A stretch of 64,000 nucleotides of DNA from Tractidigestivibacter montrealensis (GTDB lineage Bacteria > Actinomycetota > Coriobacteriia > Coriobacteriales > Atopobiaceae): the NCBI RefSeq assembly GCF_024741235.1, contig NZ_JANSKA010000001.1, positions 310,001 to 374,000 of the forward strand, read 5' to 3'. The position numbers and the translations under genes were made by a program. The notes under the pieces are model-generated. The model saw nothing but the letters and a program-made list of their open reading frames with translations, was not told where the DNA came from and made no database searches. Of the stretch, positions 13,030 to 15,530 are shown one piece after another; position 1 is the stretch's first letter, and each line of letters opens with the position of its first letter.

Positions 13030-13417
13030 GAGAGCACCTCCCTTTGTTTGGCCCCTCAACGGAGCCGTCTGCGTGTGTGTAACTTGAATGTAAGGACGAG
13101 CGTTGAGCCGCAACAGCCCAAGAGGCGTCGGTAGCCAGATACCGGAATTGTCGGAACATGCAAAACAGCCACATTGATTTGCAACATGTGCGTTCGTGCA
13201 GCAATTCCACAGGCCAAGCCCATGACGAATCCACGGCGTGATACAGTGAAGCCACAGGAAACGCGCTGTTACTGACGGATAATCGTGGGACACCACGGGG
13301 AAGCAGCGTGAACACAACCCGCCGACCGTCTGGGCAAGCGCACCTGAGTGGGTGCTTGCCCGCTGCTGTCTTTTAGGGCCGGGCCCGCTCGCGTGCGCAC
13401 GAGAGAAGAGAGGACCC
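13030..13417. other. Divergent intergenic region upstream of gatD and the IMP cyclohydrolase gene
   Basis: These 388 bases hold no gene I can support. They must contain the minus-strand promoter of the alditol operon and the plus-strand promoter of the purine biosynthesis pair. An imperfect inverted repeat at 13156-13188 (outer ACATG/CATGT, inner TGCAAAAC/GATTTGCA) is the only symmetrical element I notice and could be a regulator site. No clear -10/-35 pair stands out. Confidence 0.4.
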
Positions 13418-14053
13418 ATGGAGGATCTGCTCGAGCTACTGCGCGACAACCCCTATCCCGGACGCGGCATTGTGGTTGGCAGCCACTGCGTCTACTACTG
13501 GATCATGGGACGCAGCTCCAACAGCCGGAACCGCGTGTTTGTGAAGACCGAGGACGGTATTCGTACCGAGGCGCACGACCCCGCGCTTCTCGAGGACCCC
13601 AGCCTCATCATCTACCACCCCGTTCGCACCATGGGCAAGGACCTCGTGGTGACCAACGGCGACCAGACCGACACCATCGTCGAGAAGAGCGACTTTGTCG
13701 CCGGCTGCATGGCGCGCGAGTACGAGCCGGATAAGCCCAACTACACGCCGCGCATCAGCTCGGTGCTGCACCCCGATGGCTCGTTTGAGCTCTCCATCCT
13801 CAAGCGCGCGCGTGACGGGCGCTGCGCACGCGAGTTCTTCTCGTACGAGGGCACCGATGGCGGATGCGGCTACTTCATCAGCACCTACCAGGGAGACGGC
13901 AACCCGCTTCCCAGCTTTGCGGGCGAGCCCATCCACGTAGGCGTGGGGAGCCCCGAGGAGGTCTGGGCGGCGCTCAACCCCGATAACAAGGTCTCGCTCT
14001 ACACCAACGTGGAGGGCGAGGTGCGCATCTTCAACAAGAACCTCGGCGACTAG
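13418..14053 (+). CDS. purO: PurO-type IMP cyclohydrolase
   Basis: This 211-aa protein matches the IMP cyclohydrolase family first known from archaeal PurO: an early PYPGRGIVVG segment, the SSNSRNRVF basic loop, the IYHPVR strand and the FISTYQGDGNPLPSF segment near residue 155. It would close formyl-AICAR to IMP in the last step of de novo purine synthesis. The ATG at 13418 is chosen over 13352 because homology starts there and a purine-rich GAGAGG precedes it. The AICAR transformylase gene follows 298 bases downstream, so this pair replaces bifunctional PurH. Confidence 0.8.
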   Translation: MEDLLELLRDNPYPGRGIVVGSHCVYYWIMGRSSNSRNRVFVKTEDGIRTEAHDPALLEDPSLIIYHPVRTMGKDLVVTNGDQTDTIVEKSDFVAGCMAREYEPDKPNYTPRISSVLHPDGSFELSILKRARDGRCAREFFSYEGTDGGCGYFISTYQGDGNPLPSFAGEPIHVGVGSPEEVWAALNPDNKVSLYTNVEGEVRIFNKNLGD

Positions 14054-14072
14054 GGCCGACGGAGGGTTAGCG

Positions 14073-14135
14073 CGGCATGTCTTTCCTGCGGACTCAAACA
14101 GCGCTTCGCGAACTCGCCGCAGGAAAGACATGCCG
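14073..14135. repeat. Large hairpin A: 19-bp perfect stem, 25-base loop
   Basis: Bases 14073-14091 and 14117-14135 are perfect reverse complements. The loop and inner stem edge (14093-14120) recur as an exact 28-base reverse complement at 14281-14308 inside hairpin B. The outer stem sequence is not shared with hairpin B. The loop centre contains the 8-base palindrome TTCGCGAA. Confidence 0.85.
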
Positions 14136-14260
14136 TGCGCCCGCCGGTCCTCGTCGCCTCCACCCCCTGATGTAGTTGCAACTCTTTTGGGGTTGCTTGT
14201 GTGTCACGGCTGATGGTCTTGCAGCCGTACTACGTCACTCAAGGTCTTTCTTCTCGCCCC

Positions 14261-14332
14261 AGGCTCTTCGTCTCTTGTCTGCGGCGAGTTCGCGAAGCGC
14301 TGTTTGAGCAGCAGACAAGAGACGAAGAGCCT
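14261..14332. repeat. Large hairpin B: 22-bp perfect stem, 28-base loop
   Basis: Bases 14261-14282 and 14311-14332 are perfect reverse complements. The loop is the inverted copy of the loop of hairpin A, with a shared CTGC/GCAG stem edge, while the rest of the stem has a different sequence. It ends 19 bases before the AICAR transformylase start, next to that gene's ribosome-binding site. Confidence 0.85.
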
Positions 14333-14351: not shown

Positions 14352-15530
14352 ATGAACTCGCTTGAACTCAAGTACGGCTGCAATCCCAACCAGAAGCCTG
14401 CACGCATCTTCATGGCGGATGGCTCCGAGCTGCCCGTGACGGTGCTCTCCGGCACGCCGGGCTACATCAACTTCCTCGACGCCCTCAACTCCTGGCAGCT
14501 CGTGCGCGAGCTGCGCGAGGCAACCGGCATGCCTGCGGCCGCGTCGTTCAAGCACGTCTCGCCCGCCGGCGCCGCAGTGGGGACACCGCTCTCCGAGGAG
14601 GACAAGAAGGCCTTCTTTGTGGATGACGAGGGCGAGCTCACGCCCATTGCCTGCGCCTACATCCGTGCGCGCGGCGCGGACCGCATGAGCTCCTTTGGCG
14701 ACTGGGCGGCCCTCTCTGACACCTGCGACGAGCGTACCGCCCTCTACCTCAAGCACGAGGTCTCGGACGGCATCATTGCCCCCGGCTATGCCCCGGAGGC
14801 GCTCGAGATCCTGCGCTCCAAGAAGCACGGCAAGTACAACGTGATCCAGATTGACCCCAACTACGTCTGCCCAGCCGTCGAGCACAAGGACGTCTTTGGC
14901 ATCACCTTCGAGCAGGGACACAACTTCTCGAAGATTGACCGCGACCTTCTCGGCAACGTGGTGACCAAGAACAAGGACATCCCCGAGGCAGCAAAGATCG
15001 ACATGATCGTGAGCCTCATCACCCTCAAGTACACGCAGTCCAACTCCGTGTGCTACGTGAAGGACGGCCAGGTCATTGGCGTTGGTGCCGGCCAGCAGAG
15101 CCGCATTCACTGCACGCGCCTTGCCGGCAGCAAGGCCGACACCTGGTGGCTGCGTCGCCACCCCAAGGTACTTGGCCTGCACTTTGTTGACGGCATCCAC
15201 CGTCCAGATCGTGACAACGCCATCGACCTCTACATCTCGGACGAGCACGACGACGTCCTGGCCGACGGCGCCTGGCAGCGCATCTTTGCCGAGAAGCCCG
15301 AGGTTCTGGGCGCGGACGAGAAGCGCGCATGGCTCGCCCAGCAGACGGGCGTGACGCTGGGCTCCGATGCCTTCTTCCCCTTTGGCGACAACATCGAGCG
15401 CGCGCACCGCTCCGGCGTGACCTACGTGGCGGAGCCCGGCGGCTCCATCCGCGACGACAACGTGATCGAGGTCGCCGACCGCTACGGCATGGCCATGTGC
15501 TTCACGGGCCTGAGGCTGTTCCACCACTAG
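14352..15530 (+). CDS. Stand-alone AICAR transformylase (PurH C-terminal domain)
   Basis: The 392-aa protein corresponds only to the AICAR formyltransferase half of PurH and lacks the IMP cyclohydrolase half. Visible family features are LKYGCNPNQKPA at the start, ASFKHVSPAGAAVG with the catalytic Lys-His pair near residue 70, YTQSNSVCYVKDGQVIGVGAGQQ-type substrate region near 235-265, and SDAFFPFGDNIERA near 345. It transfers a formyl group from 10-formyl-THF to AICAR. Its start is preceded by GAAAGGA. The stop overlaps the end of the convergent GNAT gene by 4 bases. Confidence 0.92.
   Translation: MNSLELKYGCNPNQKPARIFMADGSELPVTVLSGTPGYINFLDALNSWQLVRELREATGMPAAASFKHVSPAGAAVGTPLSEEDKKAFFVDDEGELTPIACAYIRARGADRMSSFGDWAALSDTCDERTALYLKHEVSDGIIAPGYAPEALEILRSKKHGKYNVIQIDPNYVCPAVEHKDVFGITFEQGHNFSKIDRDLLGNVVTKNKDIPEAAKIDMIVSLITLKYTQSNSVCYVKDGQVIGVGAGQQSRIHCTRLAGSKADTWWLRRHPKVLGLHFVDGIHRPDRDNAIDLYISDEHDDVLADGAWQRIFAEKPEVLGADEKRAWLAQQTGVTLGSDAFFPFGDNIERAHRSGVTYVAEPGGSIRDDNVIEVADRYGMAMCFTGLRLFHH

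Follow-up and report, generated by a model that had tools for sequence, protein, structure and literature searches.

The closest described counterparts of the sequences considered here are the REP, REPIN and BIME elements, small extragenic palindromes which vary in copy number and form a strand-specific hairpin with an irregularity in mid-stem (PMC3733652, PMC8266576). REPs lie mostly downstream of genes and are found as head-to-head dimers (PMC3733652). The hairpin family to which the present locus belongs resembles these elements in that its members are likewise small palindromes of extragenic DNA, located for the most part downstream of genes, which form inverted, head-to-head dimers, differ in copy number between relatives and adopt a strand-specific hairpin with a mid-stem irregularity. 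It differs from them in its locus-specific arms and fixed apical core, and is alike in behaviour to the E. coli REP repeats without carrying the REP hallmarks. The GTAG/CGTC superfamilies of REPs have stems of 5-13 bp and loops of 2-20 nt, whereas this family has stems of 22-24 bp and cores of 24-60 nt; REPs mobilised by a RAYT (TnpA-REP) also flank the RAYT gene, which members of this family do not. Intrinsic terminators provide another point of comparison, as the hairpin similarly follows directly after a stop codon and replaces a terminator at nrdD, yet it has a long conserved loop and core, usually lacks a T-run and is reversed in a third of cases. The attC sites of integrons, the substrates of integrase recombination, have an imperfect stem of variable sequence immediately after a gene, with one folding strand and conserved outer (R) boxes, whereas in this family conservation lies in the apical core and variation in the outer arms. 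The LoaP/dfn antitermination hairpin was at most a further lead and was set aside, its paper containing no consensus for comparison.

The window, i.e. the entire 64,000-nucleotide stretch of Tractidigestivibacter montrealensis DNA under analysis, includes a ZTP-riboswitch operon in which the last two purine steps are performed by separate proteins rather than by a fused PurH (Table 1). The initial annotation had placed two perfect hairpins, with stems of 19 bp (A) and 22 bp (B), between the IMP cyclohydrolase and AICAR transformylase genes; the stems were reproduced exactly and the gene names agreed with Pfam and NCBIfam (PF07826, NF005492). Hairpin A starts 16 nt past the IMP cyclohydrolase stop codon, and its exact stem (14073-14135) closes a 25-nt loop, while its arms reach 14070-14138 imperfectly; its core is of the short inner-hairpin type. 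The exact stem of hairpin B (14261-14332) closes a 28-nt loop and ends 19 nt short of the AICAR transformylase start codon. The 298-nt intergenic spacer that holds both hairpins has a folding z of -8.0 relative to dinucleotide shuffles. The exact 28-base reverse complement noticed earlier between 14093-14120 and 14281-14308 is real and slightly longer, extending to 30 nt exactly or to 36 nt at 94%.

Table 1. Features of the purine operon and its two hairpins (window positions).
Feature	Positions	Strand	Description
ZMP/ZTP riboswitch aptamer	13258..13342	+	Heads the operon; context, outside the element; Rfam RF01750, 54.5 bits
IMP cyclohydrolase-like gene, upstream of A	13418..14053	+	PF07826, E 6.8e-43
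Hairpin A	14070..14138	+	Family member, A-sense on + strand; R1 model 49.5 bits, E 2.2e-9
Core of A	14093..14116	+	CTCAAACAG-CGC TTC GCG-AACTCG; inner stem 14102-14104 / 14108-14110
Spacer between hairpins A and B	14139..14260	+	Predicted three-way junction; stretch TTTGCTTGCGTGTCACGGCTGATGGTCTTGCAGCCGTACYACG strongly conserved in genus
Hairpin B	14261..14332	-	Family member, A-sense on - strand; R1 model 64.6 bits, E 5.4e-13
Core of B	14285..14308	-	Sequence identical to core A, opposite strand; inner stem 14291-14293 / 14297-14299
Stand-alone AICAR transformylase gene, downstream of B	14352..15530	+	NF005492, 705 bits; PF01808

Within the spacer, the predicted three-way junction fold and a genus-conserved stretch (GTGTCACGGCTGATGGTCTTGCAGCCGTACYACG) occupy 14167-14236, possibly as an operator, a promoter region or an additional RNA element. 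A separate 18-nt segment (14214-14231) is 89% complementary to 14371-14388 in the early coding region of the AICAR transformylase.

Both hairpins, inverted relative to one another, occur at the orthologous position in each of the eight genus members identified. Their cores are nearly constant and their arms altered on both sides. Pairing is retained at six doubly changed pairs in the orthologues of hairpin A and nine in those of hairpin B, values attained by none of 500 shuffles in either case nor by any of the slid control alignments. The question raised by the initial annotation, whether pairing and core are kept as the stems diverge, is thereby answered positively. The relatives also show the pattern it had described, two inverted copies of a small element whose core is conserved and whose perfect arms vary. 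In two genomes (G004 and G007), hairpin A has been swapped in its entirety, inner type included, for another member at an unchanged distance from the stop codon. The B-type copy ahead of the AICAR transformylase gene is retained in other genera of the family; in one genome (G034), this gene is preceded by unrelated long perfect hairpin arms (GGGGATACTCCCCTACGGGTACATCGCG..., locus L024), which occur twice in the genome and represent a second dispersed palindrome.

The unit reads, on the A-sense strand, as outer stem, CTCARACAG, a variable inner hairpin, GAACTCG and outer stem. The inner hairpin differs in both sequence and length, giving cores of 24 to 60 nt, and the near-perfect outer stem of about 22-24 bp is different at each locus; pairing stays high up to 22-24 positions away from the core, beyond which it drops. 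Among 38 diverse members, 352 doubly changed cells were counted in the stem, compared to 121 in shuffles, with covariation scores of 0.94 and 0.20, respectively. The stem is thus a structured module kept by pairing through compensatory changes. Stem position 8 is a strand-asymmetric feature: its irregular pairs on the A-sense strand comprise 35 A.C and a single G.U (p = 1e-9), a bias found also in the A-type copies alone (18 to 1). Such asymmetry may reflect either a wobble (G.T/G.U) on one strand or a preferred A.C irregularity on the other, and the sequences fit both. At positions 9-22 of the same strand G.U is not favoured (30 vs 44 A.C), so a DNA palindrome fits the stem better than a transcribed structure. 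A Myxococcota locus (L181, 5340-5470) carries two tandem copies in which the core strands appear in swapped order round a small new hairpin. Such a circular permutation is what a folded internal-loop module built of two strands would be expected to show.

Pattern searches detected the core far beyond the purine locus, and hairpins A and B are an outward-facing pair of members of a large, apparently undescribed, dispersed hairpin family present in several bacterial phyla. The exact 27-base core pattern matched more than 117 loci in the species-level genome collection, mostly with long, locus-specific and nearly perfect arms, from Coriobacteriia, Lachnospiraceae, Omnitrophota, Bdellovibrionota, Myxococcota, Dormibacterota, Chloroflexota and Planctomycetota. 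The arms in Bdellovibrionota are AT-rich, which argues against contamination. With the covariance model R1, copies were found in 88 of the 140 genomes of the bacterial family, from one to about 30 in each, where high counts are at least-values since 33 candidates were scored per genome. Numbers vary even inside a genus, as in g7, where R1 found at least 31 copies in G083 but none in either G080 or G082. Thermophilibacter gallinarum (G118) contains about 30 copies in 1.85 Mb. The source genome has six clear copies by the same model: the purine pair, a pair between leuC and leuD, and single copies downstream of nrdD and close to a malic-enzyme-like gene. The view of the initial annotation that no known family explains this layout is borne out by Rfam, which gave no match above the gathering score at the hairpins of the window or of 20 loci from several phyla, and only microRNA models below it. 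In the open-licence literature, the core strings appeared only in unrelated papers and a topic search retrieved nothing on the hairpin family; a description elsewhere is possible. An origin from phages was considered and rejected: 119 loose pattern matches in viral contigs included none with a real stem, BLAST matches to plasmids and phages were weak, and the single plasmid match inspected lay outside the hairpin family.

The copies occupy characteristic positions relative to genes, as judged by gene calls from a simple codon-usage script, which are unreliable in the most G+C-rich genome. For 62 non-overlapping copies among the 119 examined, a gene ends just upstream on the A-sense strand, with a median of 37 nt from stop codon to core; another 35 lie in front of a gene start and face the other way, and orientation relative to genes is reversed in about a third of copies. 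The typical distance from stop codon to copy is 30-47 nt, in one orientation, for most copies, and this clustering recurred across several genera and in a wider named set. The element also occurs about 40 nt behind a tRNA gene in a Bdellovibrionales genome (L197, 2192-2342), and is therefore not restricted to protein-coding genes. Most copies are single. Where two are neighbours, they nearly always take the order of the purine pair, A-sense on the + and then on the - strand (all five pairs in T. gallinarum, the purine and leuC-leuD pairs of the source genome, and the g4 genomes), and a few are in tandem (L063, L093, L098). The spacers of the purine and leuC-leuD pairs are non-homologous, and a mobile unit consisting of A, spacer and B was accordingly rejected; no strict rule emerged for replication-strand bias in T. 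gallinarum. At the 3' side of nrdD, some sister genera possess ordinary T-tailed terminators and others the element at the same place. In three genus members (L510, L511, L514), the nrdD stop codon is followed by a long hairpin of similar kind whose loop is different and degenerate (CTCGCGC...GCGACTCG), which may be a decayed or sister element.

Copy-to-copy identity within genomes falls to background 24-28 nt from the core, at the hairpin foot, which identifies the hairpin itself as the repeat unit. Arm identity at positions 10-22 is 0.39-0.50 between genomes, and within genomes it reaches 0.69 in G107, in which unlinked copies share arms, and 0.95 in JAAVZC (three copies only). In T. gallinarum and G126 the arms are no more alike within the genome than between genomes, and are still complementary. 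Taken together, the differences in copy number, the sharing of arms and the unit boundary characterise a repeat that is mobile, or was so recently, and whose pairing is strongly maintained. The presence of the element and of Y1 transposase genes is associated in the 140 genomes (72/16/23/29; Fisher p = 1e-5, uncorrected for phylogeny), more weakly than in hand-picked genomes (11/12 vs 1/10), and two genomes without Y1 genes carry at least 31 (G096) and at least 19 (G128) copies. No copies adjoined RAYT-size Y1 genes within 1.5-3 kb at the loci inspected, bar a 29.8-bit match about 1.8 kb away (L499). Two RAYT-size Y1 transposase genes in the source genome are each flanked by their own palindromes, of other types, TGAGACAAAGGGAC-type and GGGATTCCATTACC-type (L488, 2400-2428 and 3318-3348; L489, 2728-2798 and 3600-3674), which are distinct from the studied element.

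These observations bear unequally on the possible explanations. Chance or an assembly artefact is refuted by the occurrence in independent genomes and phyla, the covariation and the folding z of -8, and retains a negligible probability. The complementary loops invite the idea of a riboregulatory switch, in which A and B in one mRNA would pair and mutually disrupt each other, and both the 30-nt exact complement at the purine locus and the pair orientation, which nearly always makes the cores complementary, speak for it. Yet the exact complement measures 30, 30, 25, 18, 16, 15, 9 and 9 nt across the eight congeners, single copies predominate, spacers are unrelated between pairs, and the forced long duplex (-130.6 kcal/mol) is 21 kcal/mol less stable than the two local hairpins (-151.6 kcal/mol). 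The switch is very unlikely because the complementarity is not kept and the duplex carries this cost. The complementarity is rather a by-product of one motif occurring in two orientations, and its length varies among congeners because the inner hairpins differ freely. Thus, of the interpretation offered by the initial annotation, the inverted element with conserved core and variable arms stands, and the kissing complex or long-range 28-bp duplex does not. Classical RAYT/REP repeats of the GTAG or CGTC type would account for extragenic palindromes downstream of genes, for their inverted dimers and patchy copy number, and for the RAYT-size Y1 proteins of many hosts. Their defining features are contradicted here, however: GTAG and CGTC are no commoner than expected at one hairpin foot (GTAG 6 vs 6.6 expected, CGTC 9 vs 9.3), show no excess at the other and have no fixed position, the stems are of about 23 bp instead of 5-13, and RAYT genes are flanked by other palindromes in the source genome and not by copies, so that this explanation is improbable.

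The main rival to a REP-like palindrome is an RNA element, a possible but less than probable reading, whereby the hairpin acts in the transcript, its core binds a protein, and it serves as a 3'-end or processing signal (terminator-like or RNase III-like) between genes. The position of copies right behind stop codons, the substitution for ordinary terminators at nrdD, a stem of two helical turns, the strong covariation, the T-rich tails retained by some copies, and an internal-loop core between free helices, once circularly permuted, are all consistent with such a role. Termination by a U-tract is rejected, as a T-run of four or more directly follows only 3 of the 62 A-type hairpins, and the RNA reading is further weakened by the third of copies oriented against their genes and by the G.U and A.C counts at positions 9-22, which are unlike those of transcribed structures.

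The favoured explanation, with about an even chance, is a REP-like dispersed palindrome whose folded strand is read through the core by a candidate hairpin-processing enzyme, with a secondary role as a 3'-end hairpin. One strand would fold as single-stranded DNA (or RNA), and its core and mid-stem irregularity would be recognised by a putative hairpin-binding enzyme which may spread or homogenise the copies. Arm complementarity could be maintained by selection on the fold, by templated correction from arm to arm, or by both, and behind genes the hairpin may double as the 3'-end hairpin of the transcript. Two features of the sequences argue against mobility alone and suggest a host function as well or instead: orthologous positions are kept across genera (nrdD-nrdG, IMPCH-AICARFT), and the perfect arms in T. 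gallinarum and G126 are unshared between copies.

In known REP-type repeats it is the stem and a terminal tag that are conserved, whereas the present family shows the reverse, combining a fixed core with perfect arms that are each locus's own. The family is shared by such distant groups as Coriobacteriia, Lachnospiraceae, Omnitrophota and Bdellovibrionota, yet it has no Rfam entry. More tentatively, it may constitute a new class of hairpin element, spread over many bacterial phyla: a putative hairpin-specific enzyme or RNA-binding protein would read its fixed two-strand internal-loop module, and its long, sequence-free arms would be actively kept complementary. It offers a clean system for studying how genomes preserve long palindromes intact, what enzyme recognises them, and whether they stand in for terminators in bacteria.
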